DNA of 44,982 nt from Hallerella porci. GTDB lineage: Bacteria; Fibrobacterota; Fibrobacteria; Fibrobacterales; Fibrobacteraceae. Below, one piece after another: positions 3,081 through 18,432 of this stretch. The notes beneath the pieces are model-generated. The model did not search any database and was not told where the DNA came from. It saw only the letters and a program-made list of their open reading frames with translations. The stretch is taken from contig NZ_QGHD01000021.1 in NCBI RefSeq assembly GCF_003148885.1, positions 1 to 44,982 on the forward strand. Reading direction: 5' to 3'. Position 1 is the stretch's first letter. Each line of letters begins with the position of its first letter. The position numbers and the translations under genes were made by a program.

Positions 3081-3895
3081 TTACTTGTTCCTATTTTCTT
3101 CAAGCTGTTCTAAAATTTTATAAACCGCTGACGATGGGTTTGCTCCTTCGGTTAAAATTTTTGCACGAGTTAAGGCTTCAAATTTTTTGTCCCACAAATA
3201 TTTCTTTTGCGTTTCTGTAAGATTTGGCTTTTTATAATTTTGCCAAACATTTCCCATTTTTGTTAATTCATCGATGCACTTATTTGTCTGAATAAAACGG
3301 CTCTGTCAAGTCATTTTATACGGTTCCGTTGTTATAGCAAAAAATGTCGGTTTCGTAAGCCCCTCCGAAGCTGTTTATTCACTACAGAATTGCAGAATTT
3401 AGGCTATTTTGGCCATTTTTGGTTTCCGCAGCGTTTCCGTAATCATACAGTTTGGTGTGACAGAGCCGAGGTCAAAACCGCAGCAGAACCGCAGTTTTTC
3501 GGAAATAACCACGCAGCTATATAAAAAGGCTTGACAGAGCCAATAAAACTGCTTTGATTTTTACAATGCAGTAAAAACCATAACTCAATACAAGGATTAC
3601 TACAAAGGAATGTCGCTTTACAATTTTTCAATTTTTGGTTGATTGCAACAACATCTAAATCATACAGCAAAAATGTTTTTACGCAATCTCGGGAGGAAAT
3701 TTTTAATTCCTTTTTGCGTGAATCAATTAAATGTTGTGAAATGCGAGCGCCTTCTTTTTTGACAATAATTTTAATGGGAGACTTATATTCTCTTCGTAAA
3801 AAATCAAGATATTTTTCTTCTGTTTCTCCTTCGCAAAAAACAAGAAACATCGGCTTCATTTTTTTTGCAGGTCTCTCCTCTCTTCTTGTAGTCAT
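3081..3895 (-). pseudogene. rloB: RloB-family protein gene split by a miniature transposable element
   Basis: The first 118 codons (3895 down to 3542) encode the RloB start, with a Toprim-like acidic cluster: EGETEEKYL near residue 22 and YDLDVV near 78, then the family pattern NPCIELWFLLH. At 3541 the frame enters a 243-bp inserted element and runs to a stop at 3443. The missing C-terminus lies beyond the insertion at 3290-3081, reading IDELTKMGNVWQNYKKP and ending LEEN-RNK. Removing the element and one 8-bp target copy joins ...QSSFI to QTNKCIDEL in frame, giving a 187-aa protein of normal family length. RloB proteins pair with RloA ATPases in restriction-linked and PARIS-like defence loci. 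The start ATG abuts the rloA stop directly. As it stands the gene is probably inactive. Confidence 0.85.
3299..3541. mobile_element. MITE-like element inside rloB
   Basis: A 243-bp sequence without a transposase, bounded by terminal inverted repeats: left end GGCTCTGTCAAG (3299-3310), right end CTTGACAGAGCC (3530-3541). The repeat extends to 22 bp with two mismatches. Direct copies of AATAAAAC lie at 3291-3298 and 3542-3549, an 8-bp target duplication. GG-starting ends with 8-bp duplications suit ISL3-type elements, though IS256 or IS66 relatives are possible. A further TGACAGAGCC at 3458-3467 repeats the terminal motif internally, suggesting a composite or internally deleted parent. It disrupts rloB. 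Confidence 0.88.
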
Positions 3896-5134
3896 TTATT
3901 CCCCCAAAAGATTTTTTAATGTTTGAACTGAAGAATCTACATAAGGAACGGCATCAAATCGCCCTTGCAAATATCCTTTTTGCGCATCCATATTTTCTCG
4001 AAAATCTTTATAATCATATAAAGAATAAACATCTGTAGCGCCTTCGTTATTTTTATTGACAAAAACAATTTGATCTTTGCGCAGTCGTTTTACATCGATC
4101 AAATTTGTATTGTGCGAAGTAAATAAAAATTGAGCTTTTGACGAAGCGTGAATTAAATCAAGAATAAAATCGGCTAAGCGCGTATGCAGGCTTGCATCAA
4201 ATTCATCGAGCATTAAAGATTTTTGATTTTTTACCACATCGATGAGCCGAATCAATACGGCAAATAATTTTTTTGTTCCGTTCGATTCTTCGGTTTCAAT
4301 ATCAAATGAAATTTTTTCATTAAATTGATGAAATGTTTCAATTTTAATGGAATCGATTTCCGCTTCTTTGAATGCAATTTTCATTTGTTCTTCGATATTT
4401 GGGATAGGCATTTTAATTTTCTCATGAGTTAATTTCACATCAGAAATGTCGCTATCGCAAATGGCTAATGCTTTTAAAATAAGTTCTTTATATTTGCTAA
4501 ATGAATCTTCGACGAGTTTATCGTTTAAAGGAATTAACCCGAGCATCAATGTGTTTAGAAAATAGCGATAAATTTTTTGTGCAAATTCTCTGTTCATGTT
4601 ATTTGCGCGGCTTAAAAACAGATTGACATTGCTTGTGCTTTCGATAACATCTTTTACCGCAGGAATTGTGACGCTGCCAAAAGAATATTCATTTTTTTCA
4701 TTTCGCACAAAAATTTTTGCGCGTCGATTATTTGGAAAATAAAACAAGGATTCTGTTAAAATTTGACTGCGATTTAAAGTAAAGGAATATTCGTATTCAA
4801 TATTTTCACAGACAAAGTCAATGAAAAATGAACTTGGTTTTGAATCAAAATGATCAAATTTAAATGGCATAAAATTGAACATGCCACCTTCATTGTATTG
4901 ATGAGATTCTAAAATGGTTCTGCAACAAAAATGAATCGCTTTAATAATATTGGATTTTCCCGAAGCATTGGGTCCGAAAAGTCCGATTGTTTTTAGGACT
5001 TTTTGATGATTCCATTCGATGACATTATCTTGAAGTTCACGAGATTGTGCAGAATTGATATTTCCTGCTCGAAAGTCTATGCAGATTTTATTTTTGATCG
5101 AAAAGAAGTTTTCTAATTCAATTTTTAGAAGCAT
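3896..5134 (-). CDS. rloA: RloA-like AAA ATPase (defence-associated)
   Basis: A 412-aa ATPase of the AAA15/AAA21 (SMC/OLD-like) kind. Walker A is GPNASGKS (54-61), a signature-like ESNGTKKL lies near 283-290, Walker B is LMLDEFD (about 307-313), and a switch histidine lies in FTSHNTNLID (about 338-347). Such ATPases partner with RloB or Toprim-type effectors in restriction-linked and abortive-infection loci; RloA/RloB were named from Campylobacter restriction loci. The rloB start follows the stop codon without any gap, so the two form an operon. A perfect 8-bp inverted repeat (TATTTGTA-7-TACAAATA) lies just before the start, possibly an operator. The ATPase looks intact, but its partner gene is interrupted, so the system is probably non-functional. 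Confidence 0.8.
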   Translation of the reverse strand: MLLKIELENFFSIKNKICIDFRAGNINSAQSRELQDNVIEWNHQKVLKTIGLFGPNASGKSNIIKAIHFCCRTILESHQYNEGGMFNFMPFKFDHFDSKPSSFFIDFVCENIEYEYSFTLNRSQILTESLFYFPNNRRAKIFVRNEKNEYSFGSVTIPAVKDVIESTSNVNLFLSRANNMNREFAQKIYRYFLNTLMLGLIPLNDKLVEDSFSKYKELILKALAICDSDISDVKLTHEKIKMPIPNIEEQMKIAFKEAEIDSIKIETFHQFNEKISFDIETEESNGTKKLFAVLIRLIDVVKNQKSLMLDEFDASLHTRLADFILDLIHASSKAQFLFTSHNTNLIDVKRLRKDQIVFVNKNNEGATDVYSLYDYKDFRENMDAQKGYLQGRFDAVPYVDSSVQTLKNLLGE

Positions 5135-11569: not shown

Positions 11570-14500
11570 ATGTGGAATGTTAAAGGTACGCTTCCCTTGT
11601 TCCTTTCCATTTTTGGAACCACCTTCGCGGTGATGGGGCACTTTGTCTTTACGCAAAAAGTTCTTTCAACGCATTACGAGGGCGGAGAGCTTCTCTTTTG
11701 GAGCGCTTGGTTTCAAGCATTTTATCTCTTGCCTTTCATCTACATGATCGTTCCGGCGAGTTTCTTCTCGAATCGCTTTCCGAAAAATCGCGTGCTCGCT
11801 TGGACGTCGGTCGTCATCACCGCTTCGTTTATTGCAACGGGCATTTTTTACACATTAAAATTTTACAACTTGGCGATTTTCTTTACGCTTTTAACGGCTT
11901 CGGCTTTTGCGGTGCATAGTCCTGCGAAATACGGCATTTTGAAAGAAATGTACGGGACAAAGCAGCTCGGCTTTGCAAACGCAGTTTTGCAAATTATTTC
12001 GGTGATTGCGCTTGCGCTCGCGGCTCTTCTTGTGCCCGGATTGGATTCGGTGGAGTCGGCTTTTGAAGGTTCGTTAACGGTCAAAGAATTCCTCGGAAAA
12101 ACGGTTGCGTGGCCGTGGATTTTTATGGGAATTAGCGCACTTTCAACGGTTGCCGCTTTCTTTGTGCCGAGCGTTCGCCGCGGTTATGCGTCGGCAAGAC
12201 GTTCTTCGGTCTTCCGGAATTTGGCGCATACTTGGAAAATTCCGACCGTCCGCGCTTGTATGGTGGGCATTTCCATTTTCTGGATTGGCGTGCAGATTTT
12301 TGTGATGGTTTTCCAGCAGCAAGCGTCGGCGTCAAACGAAACGATTGCGCTTTTTAAGAACGGCATTTTCTTCGCGGTCATCGGACTTCTTTTGGGCTCG
12401 TTGATTGTGGCGCGCGCCTCGCGGGAATTTATCGAAACCGGACTTGTGCCGATGGGCGCTCTCGGTTCTTCGATTTGCTTAGTCATCGTGCCGTTCCTTT
12501 CTTCGCAGGTGGCGATTGATATTGCATTCTTCCTTGTCGGTACATTCAGCGGAATGTTCCTTGTCACATTAAACGCTCTTTTGCAATTTAATACGGCGCC
12601 GACGAATTCGGGGCGCATTCTCGCCGTTTCGAATTTGATTCAGATTGTGCTTCTCGGCGCTTTCCTCGGACTCGAAACTATTGTGCTGCATAATGTGCAG
12701 AAATTTTTCCCCGAATATCAAAGTTGGATTTTCCCGGGCTTCTTCATCGCCTTTGCAATTCTTTCGTTTATCGGTTTTGCGTATTCGTTAAAGCATTTGC
12801 CGCAGGCGCTTTTGCGTTCACTTCTCCGCACATTCTTTAGTCCGTATAAACTCAAGGTTATGGGCCTGCAGAATATTCCCGACGAAGGGCCGGTGCTTCT
12901 TCTCGGCAACCATTTTAGCTTTATTGACTGGGCGGTTCTTCAGATGGCGACGCCGCGTCCGCTGCGCATCGCAAGTAACAAAGACCACTTTGAAAAATGG
13001 TATTTGCGCTGCATTTTAAAGCGCATGGGAATTATCCGCATTCACAAGAAAAATACAGCGGAAGCGATGGAAAAAATCCACGAAGCGCTGAAAAATGGGG
13101 AAGCGGTCGTGCTCTTCCCCGAAGGTGAAATTGCGAAAACTCCGTTTATCGGACCTTTCCGCGTGGACTATTCTCAAGCGATTCAAGATACGGAAACCGT
13201 TATCGTTCCGTTCTACATTCAAGGACTTTGGGGAAGCCGTTACGCTTATTCGAACGATACGCATCTCTTTGGCCCGACTTTAACTCGGATTATTACTGTA
13301 GCATTTGGCGAACCGCTTCCGAAAGAAACGGAGCCGAATAAAATCCGCAACATTGTCCGCGAAATTTCAATTGATGCGTGGAGCAATTCGCTGAAATATT
13401 ATAAGCCGATTGCTTCGTCTTGGCTTTATGCGTGCAAACGCGTTGTGCGTTCGGGACCTTCGATTTACAGTCCCGAAGGTGCGCATTTCTCGGGCTATAA
13501 ATTGCTTTGTGCCACATTAGCGTTTAGCCGCGTTTTCAAAAAGCGTTTAGCAGGGCAAAAGCATGTGGGGATTATGCTGCCTCCTTCTGCGGGCGGAATC
13601 ATTGCGAATCTCGCCGGTTGGGTCCGCGGAAAAATCAATGTGAATTTGAATTATACATCGGCGCCGGATATTGTCGAAAAGTGCATTGAACGCGCAGAAA
13701 TTAAAACGATTATCACGAGTCGCGTTTTCTTGGAACGCTTGAAGCAAAAGGGAACGGATTACTCGGTACTTTCACAAGTGTGCGAACTCATCTACGCCGA
13801 AGATGTGCTCAAGAGTATTCCGAAATCTGCGATGATTTTCCACATGTTTATGGGAATTCTTCTCCCGGTAAAACTCATCGAATTTTTCTATTTCAAAAAG
13901 GTGAAACTTTCGGATACCGCAGCGATTCTCTTTAGTTCGGGAACCGAAGGCACGCCGAAGGGAGTTGAACTTACCCATTATAATATGGTGGGAAATTGCC
14001 AGCAACTTTCTTGCGTTTATAATGCGAACAAATCCGACGTGATGCTCGCAGAACTTCCGCTTTTCCATTCGTTTGGTTTGACGGTGAACGTGTTGCTTTG
14101 CCTCTTGGAAGGAATTCCAATCGTCGTCGTCGCGGACCCGACCGATGTGAAAACGATGGCTCGCGTTTGCGCCGAATTCCATGTGACTGCATTTGTGGGA
14201 ACGCCGACATTCTTGCGCGCCTTTACGGTGAACCGTTGGGTGCATCCGATGTGCTTTAAGTATCTGCGTTTGATTATCGCGGGCGCCGAAAAACTTCGCC
14301 CCGAAATTTCTACCGCATTCCGTTTGAAATTCGGCAAGGAAATTTTCGAAGGCTACGGTTGCACTGAAACAGCGCCGGTGGCATCGGTCAATTTGGATAA
14401 CATTCTTCTCGACGATTATTTAACGATGCAGGTGAACAACAAACCGGGAACGGTGGGAATGCCTCTCTGCGGGACTCTTTATAAAATCGTGGATCCGGAT

Positions 14501-15013
14501 ACGAATCAAGAATTGCCCATCGGCGAAGACGGAATGATTCTTATCGGCGGCTGCCAAGTGATGAAGGGTTACCTCAAAGATTCGGAACATACGAAGAATG
14601 CGATTATCGAAATGGATGGTAGACGTTGGTACCGTACCGGCGACAAAGGCCATTTAGACGAAGATGGTTTCTTAACAATCGTCGATCGTTACAGCCGATT
14701 CGCAAAACTCGGTGGCGAAATGATTTCACTCGGTGCAGTTGAAATCCGCATCAATGAAACAAAAATTTTGGAAGGCTTCGATTATATGGTGACGACAATT
14801 CCTGACAGTGCAAAGGGTGAATGCGTCGTGCTCTTGTATTCGGGCGCCGAGATGGAACCTGCCGATGTTTTACGCGCATTGCGTAAGTCGGGAATTCCGC
14901 CTCTTATGGTGCCGGGCCTTGCTTTCAAAGTTCCGCAGATTCCCAAACTCGGAACGGGCAAAGCAGACTTCAAGGCTTCGAAGAAGCTCGCGCTTGAATT
15001 AGCAAACGCTTAA
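11570..15013 (+). CDS. LplT-PlsC-Aas fusion: lysophospholipid flippase/acyltransferase/acyl-ACP synthetase (copy 1)
   Basis: A 1147-aa three-domain inner-membrane protein. Residues 1 to about 410 form an MFS-type transporter of the LplT kind. About 420-630 is a PlsC-type acyltransferase with the HX4D motif (His448, Asp453, NHFSFID) and FPEG at 516-519. About 640-1147 is an AMP-forming acyl-ACP synthetase with P-loop FSSGTEGTPKG (788-798), GYGCTETAP and a C-terminal catalytic Lys (about 1131, GTGKAD). In Escherichia coli LplT flips lysophospholipids inward and Aas re-acylates them; here flippase and both Aas activities are in one chain. All motifs are intact. A second copy follows after 32 bases. 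Confidence 0.9.
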   Translation: MWNVKGTLPLFLSIFGTTFAVMGHFVFTQKVLSTHYEGGELLFWSAWFQAFYLLPFIYMIVPASFFSNRFPKNRVLAWTSVVITASFIATGIFYTLKFYNLAIFFTLLTASAFAVHSPAKYGILKEMYGTKQLGFANAVLQIISVIALALAALLVPGLDSVESAFEGSLTVKEFLGKTVAWPWIFMGISALSTVAAFFVPSVRRGYASARRSSVFRNLAHTWKIPTVRACMVGISIFWIGVQIFVMVFQQQASASNETIALFKNGIFFAVIGLLLGSLIVARASREFIETGLVPMGALGSSICLVIVPFLSSQVAIDIAFFLVGTFSGMFLVTLNALLQFNTAPTNSGRILAVSNLIQIVLLGAFLGLETIVLHNVQKFFPEYQSWIFPGFFIAFAILSFIGFAYSLKHLPQALLRSLLRTFFSPYKLKVMGLQNIPDEGPVLLLGNHFSFIDWAVLQMATPRPLRIASNKDHFEKWYLRCILKRMGIIRIHKKNTAEAMEKIHEALKNGEAVVLFPEGEIAKTPFIGPFRVDYSQAIQDTETVIVPFYIQGLWGSRYAYSNDTHLFGPTLTRIITVAFGEPLPKETEPNKIRNIVREISIDAWSNSLKYYKPIASSWLYACKRVVRSGPSIYSPEGAHFSGYKLLCATLAFSRVFKKRLAGQKHVGIMLPPSAGGIIANLAGWVRGKINVNLNYTSAPDIVEKCIERAEIKTIITSRVFLERLKQKGTDYSVLSQVCELIYAEDVLKSIPKSAMIFHMFMGILLPVKLIEFFYFKKVKLSDTAAILFSSGTEGTPKGVELTHYNMVGNCQQLSCVYNANKSDVMLAELPLFHSFGLTVNVLLCLLEGIPIVVVADPTDVKTMARVCAEFHVTAFVGTPTFLRAFTVNRWVHPMCFKYLRLIIAGAEKLRPEISTAFRLKFGKEIFEGYGCTETAPVASVNLDNILLDDYLTMQVNNKPGTVGMPLCGTLYKIVDPDTNQELPIGEDGMILIGGCQVMKGYLKDSEHTKNAIIEMDGRRWYRTGDKGHLDEDGFLTIVDRYSRFAKLGGEMISLGAVEIRINETKILEGFDYMVTTIPDSAKGECVVLLYSGAEMEPADVLRALRKSGIPPLMVPGLAFKVPQIPKLGTGKADFKASKKLALELANA

Positions 15014-15045
15014 CATTTCTAAGTTCTGGGCAACCAAGGATTTTC

Positions 15046-18000
15046 ATGCAAAAAAAAGGCTTGATCCCGTTTTTGATTACTGTTTTAGCTTCATCTTTTA
15101 TGCAGATGGGGCTTTTCCTTTTTTTTGAACAACGGCTCAAATATTCGGTAGCAACTCCGGAATCTTTTCCGGTTTACAGCGCTATGTTGCAGGCGATGTT
15201 CTACGGACCGTATCTTTTGCTTTTCCCGATTGCGGGCTTTTTAGCGGATCGATTTGGCAAAGGAAAAGTCATCGCTTGGTCGTCTCTCGGTTATGTCGCG
15301 GGGGCAATCGTCATCGGTGTTTTGTGGACGGTTGGACTTCCCGATATTGCGATTTGGTTTGTGCTTCTCGTTTCGTCGTCGGTTGCGCTCGGAAGCCCTG
15401 CGCGTTACGGCGTCGTCAAAGAAATGTTCGGAACGGAGCATCTTGCGACGGGAATTGCGCACATGTTTACGGTCATGCTCGCGGGCGCTTTAATCGCATC
15501 CGTCGGCGTGATAAGCCTTTACAATGAATCGGCAACTCTTCTCGGCGTCGATTATTTGCTTTGGATTTTCGTCGGGGTGGCTGTTCTTTCGGCGGTTTCG
15601 GCTTTCTTCATTCCGAAAACAGGACGCGAACGCGAATCGTTACAAATCCGTTCTCCGGGACGCATTTTCCATGCGACGTGGTATATTAGCCTTTCTCGCG
15701 TCATCATTATCGGGCTCGCCGTTTTCTGGGGACTCGCCCAAGTATTTGTACTGCTTTCGCAAAGTCTTTCGAGCGAAGGATTCTTGTATGTGGTGCGCAA
15801 TGGACTTGTCTTCTCCGCCGTGGGAATGATGTTCGGCGGTTATCTTGCCGCACGTTCTTCGCATCAATTTATCGAAGTCGGGCTGATTCCGGTTTCGGTC
15901 TTTGGTTGCGGTGTCTGCGCATTCTTCATTCCGATGGTTGAAAATCCGATTCTCATTCGGATGCTTTACGCTTTCCTCGGACTTTTCTTTGGCGCACTCG
16001 GAACGGTTTTAAATTCGCTCTTGCTTCAATATTCGCGCCCCGCGTCGACGGGTCGCATAGTCGCCGTATCCAATATGGTGACGATGCTTTTCCTCATTTT
16101 CGTCGTTGCATTCGAAGCGGCTCTTCTCGAATTTACGCACATCGACCGCGAAACCTTCCTCTTTGTCTTCTCGCTCTTTTTGCTCGCTGCTTTCGTGTGG
16201 GCGTTTATCCGATTCCCGCAATCGCTTTTGCGCACCATGTTCCGCGCTTATTACGTTTTCCGCTACAATTTAAAAGTTATCGGCAACGAAAATATTCCGA
16301 TCGAAGGCCCCGTTTTGCTTCTCGGCAATCACACGAGTGCTATCGATTGGATTCTTTTGCAAATGGCGAGTCCGCGGCCGTTGCGGATGGCGATGAACGA
16401 AGATAAATCCGAACACGGAATTTCTCGTTGGGTGTTAAAACTCCTCGGCGCAATTCGCATTAATCGGCGAAATCCCGAGCCCGCGATGGCAGAAATTCGT
16501 AAAGCGCTTTTGCACGGTGAAGCGGTGGTCATTTTCCCCGAAGGCGAACTTGCAAAGTCTTGCAACATCGGGCGTTTTTCCATCGATTATTCTTCGGCGG
16601 TGAAAGATACGAGCGCACGCTTAATTCCTTTTTACATTCAAGGAGTTTGGGGCAGCAAGTATAGCTATGCCGATGAAAGCGTGAACTTTGGCGAAAAATT
16701 AACGCGCATCGTTTCCATCGCATTTGGCAAAGAATTTCCGCTTGATACCGATCCTGCAAAACTGCGAAATATTTTGCGCGAACTTTCGATGACCGCATGG
16801 GCAAAATCCCTTTCGTATTATCCGACCATTGTGCCGTTCTGGTTAAAAGCGATGAAGCATCGGGTGCGTCACCACGTCGCCATTTACAGTCCGCTCGGCA
16901 ATCATTTGACCGGCTACGGTTTAATGCAGCAAGTGTTAATTTATGCGCACGCTCTCGGCAAAGTCGCGAAAAAAGAAGAACGCGTCGGCTTTATGCTTCC
17001 GCCTTCGCCCGAAGGAATTTCGCTTTTGCTCGGCATTTGGACCGCAGGCAAAACGAGTGTCAATTTGAATTATACATCGGGCTTAGATACCATTCTCAAA
17101 TGCATTGAACGCTCCGAAATTAAAACGGTGTTAACGAGTTGGGAATTCCTCAACAAATTGCAGCGCCGCGGACAAGATTATTTGAAAATCGGAACGGTTT
17201 GCAAACTCATTTGCATCGAAGATTTAGAAAAATTAGTCAATCCGATTTATCGGGTTTTTGCGTTCGCTTCGGCGGCTCTTCTCCCCGCGCGGACAATCAA
17301 TTTCCTCTTTGCAAAATCCGTCAAACCCGACGATACCGCAGTCGTTCTTTTCAGTTCGGGCTCCGAAGGCATGCCGAAAGGTGTCATGCTTTCGCATCGC
17401 AATTTAGTTTCGAATACGCAGCAATCCAATTCGATTTTTAACATTCGCCGAAACGATGTAATCCTCGAAGAACTTCCGATTTTCCATTCGTTTGGTTTAA
17501 CGGTCACGACGTTAATGCCTCTCTTCGAAGGCGTTCCGCTTGTCACTTGTTCGGAACCGACGGATGTGAAAACGATGGCTCGTGTTTGCGCCGAATTCCG
17601 CGTCACCATTCTCGTGGGAACGCCGACATTCTTGCGCGCTGTGGGCATTAACCGCTGGGTGCATCCGATGTGCTTCAAGCATTTGCGCCTTGTCCTCTCG
17701 GGAGCCGAAAAACTCCGCTCCGAAATTCGCGATTTGTTTGCGCGTAAATTCAAAAAAGAAATTTACGAAGGTTACGGTTGCACCGAAACGGCACCGCTTG
17801 CGACTTTCAACACCGAAGACGTTTTGCTCGACGACTTCCTCACCACCGATCCGCGCTTTAATCCGAAATCGGTCGGCATGGCGATTCCAGGAATCGGTGT
17901 CAAAATTATCGATCCCGAAACGAACGAAGAATTGCCGCAGGGCGAAGAAGGCATGATTCTCATCGGCGGCTGCCAAGTGATGAAGGGTTACCTCAAAGAT

Positions 18001-18432
18001 CCAGAACGCACGAAGAGTGTCATCCTCGAAATCAATGGACATCGTTGGTATAAAACCGGCGACAAAGGCTACTTGGATAAAGATGGCTTCGTCATCATCG
18101 TCGATCGTTACAGCCGATTTGCAAAACTCGGCGGTGAAATGATTTCACTCGGCGCAGTCGAAGCGAAATTGAACGATACCGAACTTCTTTTGGGAATGGA
18201 TTACGTCATCATCGCAATTCCCGACGAAGTCAAGGGCGAACGCATTGTGCTTTTGTATGCGGGCGATAAAGAAGCGGATGAACTTTTGCGTGAACTGCGC
18301 AAATCGGGAATGCCGCAGATGATGATTCCGGGCGCCGCATTTAAACTCGATGCCATTCCGAAACTCGGCTCGGGCAAAGCGGACTTTACGACCGCAAAGA
18401 AAATCGCCACAGAACTTTGCGCGAAGGCATAA
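15046..18432 (+). CDS. LplT-PlsC-Aas fusion (copy 2)
   Basis: An 1128-aa paralogue of the preceding gene with the same order: MFS transporter (about 1-400), PlsC acyltransferase with HX4D (His429, Asp434, NHTSAID) and FPEG at 497-500, then AMP-binding acyl-ACP synthetase with FSSGSEGMPKG from residue 769, GYGCTETAP and GSGKAD near the C-terminus. The active-site motifs are retained, so neither copy looks decayed. The MFS parts have diverged more than the synthetase parts, where stretches such as the one encoding IGGCQVMKGYLKD are almost identical at DNA level. Different substrate or acyl preference is possible. Its stop overlaps the next start (TAATG). Confidence 0.9.
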   Translation: MQKKGLIPFLITVLASSFMQMGLFLFFEQRLKYSVATPESFPVYSAMLQAMFYGPYLLLFPIAGFLADRFGKGKVIAWSSLGYVAGAIVIGVLWTVGLPDIAIWFVLLVSSSVALGSPARYGVVKEMFGTEHLATGIAHMFTVMLAGALIASVGVISLYNESATLLGVDYLLWIFVGVAVLSAVSAFFIPKTGRERESLQIRSPGRIFHATWYISLSRVIIIGLAVFWGLAQVFVLLSQSLSSEGFLYVVRNGLVFSAVGMMFGGYLAARSSHQFIEVGLIPVSVFGCGVCAFFIPMVENPILIRMLYAFLGLFFGALGTVLNSLLLQYSRPASTGRIVAVSNMVTMLFLIFVVAFEAALLEFTHIDRETFLFVFSLFLLAAFVWAFIRFPQSLLRTMFRAYYVFRYNLKVIGNENIPIEGPVLLLGNHTSAIDWILLQMASPRPLRMAMNEDKSEHGISRWVLKLLGAIRINRRNPEPAMAEIRKALLHGEAVVIFPEGELAKSCNIGRFSIDYSSAVKDTSARLIPFYIQGVWGSKYSYADESVNFGEKLTRIVSIAFGKEFPLDTDPAKLRNILRELSMTAWAKSLSYYPTIVPFWLKAMKHRVRHHVAIYSPLGNHLTGYGLMQQVLIYAHALGKVAKKEERVGFMLPPSPEGISLLLGIWTAGKTSVNLNYTSGLDTILKCIERSEIKTVLTSWEFLNKLQRRGQDYLKIGTVCKLICIEDLEKLVNPIYRVFAFASAALLPARTINFLFAKSVKPDDTAVVLFSSGSEGMPKGVMLSHRNLVSNTQQSNSIFNIRRNDVILEELPIFHSFGLTVTTLMPLFEGVPLVTCSEPTDVKTMARVCAEFRVTILVGTPTFLRAVGINRWVHPMCFKHLRLVLSGAEKLRSEIRDLFARKFKKEIYEGYGCTETAPLATFNTEDVLLDDFLTTDPRFNPKSVGMAIPGIGVKIIDPETNEELPQGEEGMILIGGCQVMKGYLKDPERTKSVILEINGHRWYKTGDKGYLDKDGFVIIVDRYSRFAKLGGEMISLGAVEAKLNDTELLLGMDYVIIAIPDEVKGERIVLLYAGDKEADELLRELRKSGMPQMMIPGAAFKLDAIPKLGSGKADFTTAKKIATELCAKA

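Follow-up and report, generated by a model that had tools for sequence, protein, structure and literature searches.

A miniature transposable element with an exact 8-bp target duplication splits the AbiL-type effector gene rloB of Hallerella porci and belongs to a gene-carrying family of Fibrobacteraceae

The analysed window is a stretch of 44,982 nucleotides that makes up contig C21 (NZ_QGHD01000021.1) in the draft genome of Hallerella porci (2.85 Mb in 78 contigs). Near one end of it lies a predicted two-gene defence locus of the AbiL or RloA/RloB type, the second gene of which is interrupted by a short element, with the following features:

3896-5134, minus strand: rloA/abiLi, an intact AAA_21 ATPase of 412 aa (PF13304 matched over positions 3-304 of 304; AbiLi E 2.5e-77).
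3550-3895, minus strand: 5' part of rloB/abiLii, which with one copy of the target duplication encodes residues 1-118 and holds E22, D79/D81 and NPCxE (PF13707 E 6e-16; AbiLii E 1.8e-17; alignment).
3443-3895, minus strand: the interrupted readable ORF of 150 aa, consisting of 118 RloB residues and an element-encoded tail (ORF list).
3081-3298, minus strand: 3' part of rloB/abiLii, residues 119-187, severed from its start and free of internal stops (joined frame, alignment).
3299-3541, no strand assigned: non-autonomous transposable element (MITE) of 243 bp lacking a transposase ORF, with 12-bp perfect terminal inverted repeats (TIRs) inside a 46-nt, 76% inverted repeat.
3299-3310, plus strand: left TIR, GGCTCTGTCAAG (repeat analysis).
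3530-3541, minus strand: right TIR, reading CTTGACAGAGCC on the plus strand (repeat analysis).
3458-3467, minus strand: inner copy of the right TIR, TGACAGAGCC, 74 bp inward of the outer one; the same tandem-end layout occurs in relatives.
3291-3298, no strand assigned: first copy of the target-site duplication (TSD), AATAAAAC, its 8-bp length backed by family statistics.
3542-3549, no strand assigned: second copy of the TSD, AATAAAAC, read from the sequence.

The stop codon of rloA directly adjoins the ATG of rloB, and an AAA_21 gene immediately followed by an RloB-domain gene resembles, in both gene order and domains, the AbiL system of Lactococcus lactis (the AAA ATPase AbiLi with AbiLii/RloB) and the RloA/RloB pair; AbiLi and AbiLii are also the best PADLOC models for RloA and for the truncated RloB, respectively. 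In contrast to AbiL, the effector gene here is cut by a MITE after codon 118, making the locus a broken member of the group. Relatives of RloA were sought in 84,980 species genomes and turned up at 19 loci, in Treponema, Fibrobacter and Bacteroidales among others; in 17 of these an uninterrupted RloB-like ORF follows the ATPase (34-53% identity), including two genomes of the same family (G022, locus L039, and G019, locus L040). Of the two remaining loci, L164 yielded no RloB-like ORF in the search and L169 matches RloA only in part. Hence, the empty site is the ancestral state. When the element and one copy of AATAAAAC are deleted from the window, the flanks join into an uninterrupted 187-aa frame (...NQSSFI-QTNKCIDEL...), and 16 homologues align with the resulting protein along its entire length. 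The original prediction, that an insertion splits rloB into halves corresponding to consecutive parts of RloB, that its removal restores the frame, and that the ATPase gene is intact, is thus borne out, as are both of the comparisons by which it was to be checked, namely a search for the empty site in related genomes and alignment of the reconstructed protein to RloB.

Next to the AbiL genes, an Eco47II-type restriction endonuclease is paired with a C5 cytosine methylase (289-2255), and a type ISP-like restriction enzyme is encoded at the far end of the contig (42145-44850). Positions 11570-18432 encode two successive large proteins, each of which fuses MFS transporter, acyltransferase and AMP-binding domains. 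Elsewhere in the genome a second RloA-like ATPase, 26% identical, is present (L058, G000:C25:11717-12934).

The element at 3299-3541 has the features of a MITE: it is 243 bp long, carries no ORF of transposase size, ends in TIRs that are perfect over 12 bp and imperfect over 46 nt (76% complementary), is flanked by two copies of AATAAAAC, occurs twice in its own genome and belongs to a family detected in 52 of 101 Fibrobacteraceae genomes. The second copy (C1, 286 bp) is bounded by a TSD of its own, GGCGCACC. The duplication had been predicted to be intact and is indeed exact on both sides; the span originally given to the element, 3291-3549, places it at the right site but counts in both TSD copies. 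The earlier description of the insertion as recent is reasonable, given perfect TIRs and TSDs and an orphaned 3' part of rloB that has acquired neither stop nor frameshift. The second copy with its own TSD, the 8-bp statistics described below and the full-length alignment of the joined RloB together argue that the arrangement is not due to chance. A -35-like hexamer, TTGACA, reads outward at both ends of the element, and insertions might form hybrid promoters in flanking DNA.

The family was traced by its end pattern, GGCTCTGTCNRGNCNNNNYRTA; as a control, the reversed pattern gave a single hit in each of two genomes. Complete members are 233-286 bp long and have a common tandem-end layout, the inner second TIR copy at the right end being a trait of the whole family. 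Among full-length relatives, the rloB element is closest to two copies in G063 (95% identity), and an element of G077 matches its right 84 bp without a difference, which suggests that modules are exchanged between elements. Among 235 end pairs from about 80 fetched loci, 22 share a flanking 8-mer, and repeats of 5, 6, 7, 9, 10, 11 and 12 bp at the same end pairs number 0, 0, 2, 2, 0, 0 and 0, respectively; the duplication is therefore 8 bp long. The flanks are A/T-rich (A 0.34, T 0.30). Neighbouring elements are often separated by exactly 8 bp (16 listed cases, amounting to 15 distinct ones since L073 and L121 overlap), less often by 9 bp (3 cases), and only two other gaps of 40 bp or less occur. 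Such 8-bp-spaced neighbours are seen at L068, L069, L072-L074, L077-L079, L083, L120, L129 and L137, with 8-mers that sometimes differ along an array; our guess is that these arrays arise by insertion into an existing duplication and recombination between copies. We also considered a tyrosine-recombinase reading, in which adjacent copies would represent inverted arms around an 8-bp spacer, and dropped it, since every insertion that stands alone is flanked by an 8-mer of its own, which is what transposition would produce. No family element was found in plasmid and phage records; one viral-collection contig starts inside a related element, which is probably host flank. A literature search found no description of the TIR sequence or of a Fibrobacter MITE, and the family is apparently undescribed.

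No transposase was found in any copy of the family, nor did we find an autonomous element that shares the complete TIR. The genome of H. porci does contain an IS256-family insertion sequence (Transposase_mut) whose end, GGTTCTGTCAA, matches the MITE end at 10 of 11 terminal bases. This end occurs at 13 contig ends of the genome, one of which is position 1-94 of the window, where the contig starts within the IS end (reverse complement GGTTCTGTCAAATAAACTGTGTCATTTAGT...); its presence at 12 further contig ends indicates that the IS is multicopy and fragments the assembly. All its copies lie at contig ends and no two of their flanks match. Subterminal similarity between IS and MITE, judged against shuffled sequences, is weak and suggestive for the left arm alone (p 0.008, against p 0.27 for the other). 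IS256-family elements typically generate 8-bp A/T-rich TSDs (PMC7780238), and the duplications of the element family are likewise 8 bp and A/T-rich. The IS of the same genome is the best candidate for a mobiliser acting in trans. The IS256 homologues of related genomes, although present in several copies, have different ends, as do the transposase relics recovered by protein searches. Mobilisation by an IS1595- or ISL3-type transposase would fit in general, since both generate 8-bp duplications, the GG start of the TIR is compatible and the genome encodes one IS1595-type gene, but we regard it as improbable: of 15 genomes that bear the element, 12 have no IS1595, and those IS1595 copies that do exist lack the TIR, whereas ISL3 gave no match in 20 genomes.

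The consequences for RloB can be gauged from its conserved positions. Upstream of the insertion point the alignment shows invariant E22, D79, D81, N100-P-C-x-E104 and H110; after it come the conserved positions Y137, K139, L142 and A157 together with an NPS motif, which all or nearly all relatives share. E22, D79 and D81 resemble the E...DxD motif of TOPRIM nucleases. According to PMC10440598, RloB is related to OLD_TOPRIM domains; a fold search of its model against the PDB gave only weak topoisomerase matches, with nothing below E 0.001, and its sequence matched no PDB sequence. In the predicted structure of a Fibrobacter relative (mean pLDDT 81) the beta/alpha core lies before residue 110, and hence before the cut at residue 118, with only helices following. 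The truncated 150-aa product thus keeps the predicted catalytic residues and loses the conserved helical C-terminus of 69 residues, so that loss of function is likely. The defence had originally been called inactivated; the missing C-terminus speaks for this, while the persistence of the predicted catalytic residues makes it a matter of inference. That same persistence, along with the whole predicted core, might favour a working shortened effector, the insertion having tuned the system rather than killed it, yet the near-universal retention of Y137, K139, L142, A157 and the NPS motif in the lost part makes this very improbable in our estimation. Simple decay, with the insertion as one step of pseudogenisation, is the fate we judge probable, and it is compatible with our overall account. 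In AbiL the toxic effector is AbiLii, and in AAA-TOPRIM pairs the AAA protein neutralises its partner (PMC10440598). If the AAA partner is a neutraliser, losing the effector but keeping the ATPase is the direction that is tolerated, as in toxin-antitoxin-like pairs (PMC10440598), and an orphan RloA, flagged at first as noteworthy, becomes unremarkable in itself. Beside the paralogous ATPase at L058 the search found no RloB-like ORF within 1.5 kb, which agrees with decay; against it, rloA and the 3' part of rloB show no other lesion.

The original prediction went further in calling the inactivation still reversible and in suggesting a population that switches by excision, and neither claim is supported: no excised copy was seen, and empty sites were found only in other species. 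For such a switch, in which precise excision in part of the population would restore defence, one may cite the perfect TSDs and the ability of the element to fold (DNA fold z -2.8), which would allow slippage excision, as well as a possible precedent in the phase variation of staphylococcal biofilm genes by IS256. The references in PMC5649170 include reports of this phase variation, of transposase-independent precise excision and, from Hennig and Ziebuhr (2008), of precise excision of IS256 in staphylococci. However, the element here is a MITE and not an IS, and the IS256 family transposes by a copy-out/paste-in route that keeps the donor copy (PMC7780238). Hence, if the mobiliser is indeed of the IS256 type, transposition would not restore rloB. 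By analogy, slippage excision of the rloB element is possible, but a switch of this kind we regard as unlikely.

Pairs of family elements also enclose 1-9 kb of unrelated genes, for example:

L033/L133 (G029), L087 (G084), L077 (G090), L116 (G035) and L131 (G070), 1.0-1.2 kb: cassette with a class-I glutamine amidotransferase and perfect 8-bp TSDs.
L134, 6850-9671, 2.8 kb: cassette with an SBF-family (ACR3-like) transporter, TSD AACGCTAT.
TSD-bounded unit of 4.2 kb: radical-SAM and alcohol-dehydrogenase genes.
TSD-bounded unit of 4.8 kb: Fib_succ_major, DUF4423 and zinc-ribbon genes.
L086, 1243-10707: 9-kb mobilisable element (Mob_Pre relaxase, tyrosine integrase, AAA_25) between two MITEs of the same orientation.

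The glutamine amidotransferase cassette occupies four different sites in five genomes, as judged by comparison of its unrelated flanks. In L134 a small gene beside the transporter is one that we take to be ArsR-like, and the unit is possibly an arsenic-resistance cassette. No transposase was found among the annotated TSD-bounded cargo units. In a further set, the cargo is flanked by two elements of the same orientation that are nearly identical (at most one difference over 233-253 bp for three pairs), and the 8-mers that match are those facing the cargo. Such inner matches are present in 9 of 83 pairs, two of which (L122, L145) may be element-internal and are left out of the argument, while no such match exists at 5-7 or 9-12 bp. 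In L086 matching 8-mers occur both outside (TTTGGCAT) and inside (CTTATCCA) the elements, and this is the outcome expected after a DNA circle with one element has entered the chromosome, whether through cointegrate formation or through recombination with a copy already there. Genes for Fib_succ_major (PF09603) are repeatedly found among the cargo that elements enclose (L068, L070, L072, L115, L122), and the elements may be a route for the expansion or spread of this lineage-specific domain.

The nearest analogues of the gene-carrying family are the TIMEs, which are Tn3-derived miniature elements, and the TIME-COMPs, the composites that they bound (PMC4133298, PMC13367494). Like these and the mobile insertion cassettes (MIC231), it has transposase-free ends of about 250 bp around unrelated cargo, which can include replicon parts, with TSDs outside the composite. 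This organisation is seen at L086, L115, L134 and others, and is thus a property of the wider family rather than of the copy in the window. Unlike those systems, the duplications here are of 8 rather than 5 bp, the ends are IS256-like rather than Tn3-like, and in several cases the two copies are also adjoined by matching 8-mers where they face the cargo. MITEs with IS256-like ends (compare IS256 and ISCth4) are similarly short and transposase-free with TIRs, and their TSDs, as in ISCth4, are exact, 8 bp and mostly A/T-rich (PMC7780238); the present family differs in having tandem terminal repeats at one end, in a full TIR that matches no autonomous IS found and in being confined to Fibrobacteraceae as far as searched. 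Tentatively, with the balance tilting somewhat against it, we propose that the rloB element could be a unit of Fibrobacteraceae-wide, transposase-free gene shuffling, whose copies would serve both as cargo-carrying transposition ends and as portable sites of entry for circles. The proposed signature of such shuffling is a cargo with a matching inner 8-mer on either side, an element beyond each inner 8-mer and a matching outer 8-mer beyond each element, an arrangement that is clean in L086.

Taken as a whole, the account that we consider highly probable is the following: 1) a 243-bp MITE transposed into rloB (abiLii), which gave rise to the two copies of AATAAAAC and broke the 187-aa protein behind residue 118; 2) AbiLi, the AAA ATPase, remains alongside a shortened effector, with the defence most likely off; 3) the element belongs to a Fibrobacteraceae-wide family that makes exact 8-bp duplications and occurs as single or adjacent insertions and as pairs bounding 1-9 kb of genes; and 4) the transposase-less element was most likely mobilised in trans by a transposase of the IS256 family. 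The split rloB offers a natural example of an abortive-infection system that has lost its effector and kept its presumed neutralising partner. A broken AbiL effector is ordinary in itself, and the part worth following is the gene-carrying, transposase-free family. With its ends known, annotators can spot such cassettes, and trans-mobilisation by an IS256-type transposase is easily testable. The family moves metabolic, transporter and surface-protein genes among the Fibrobacteraceae, fibre-degrading gut bacteria, without a transposase of its own.
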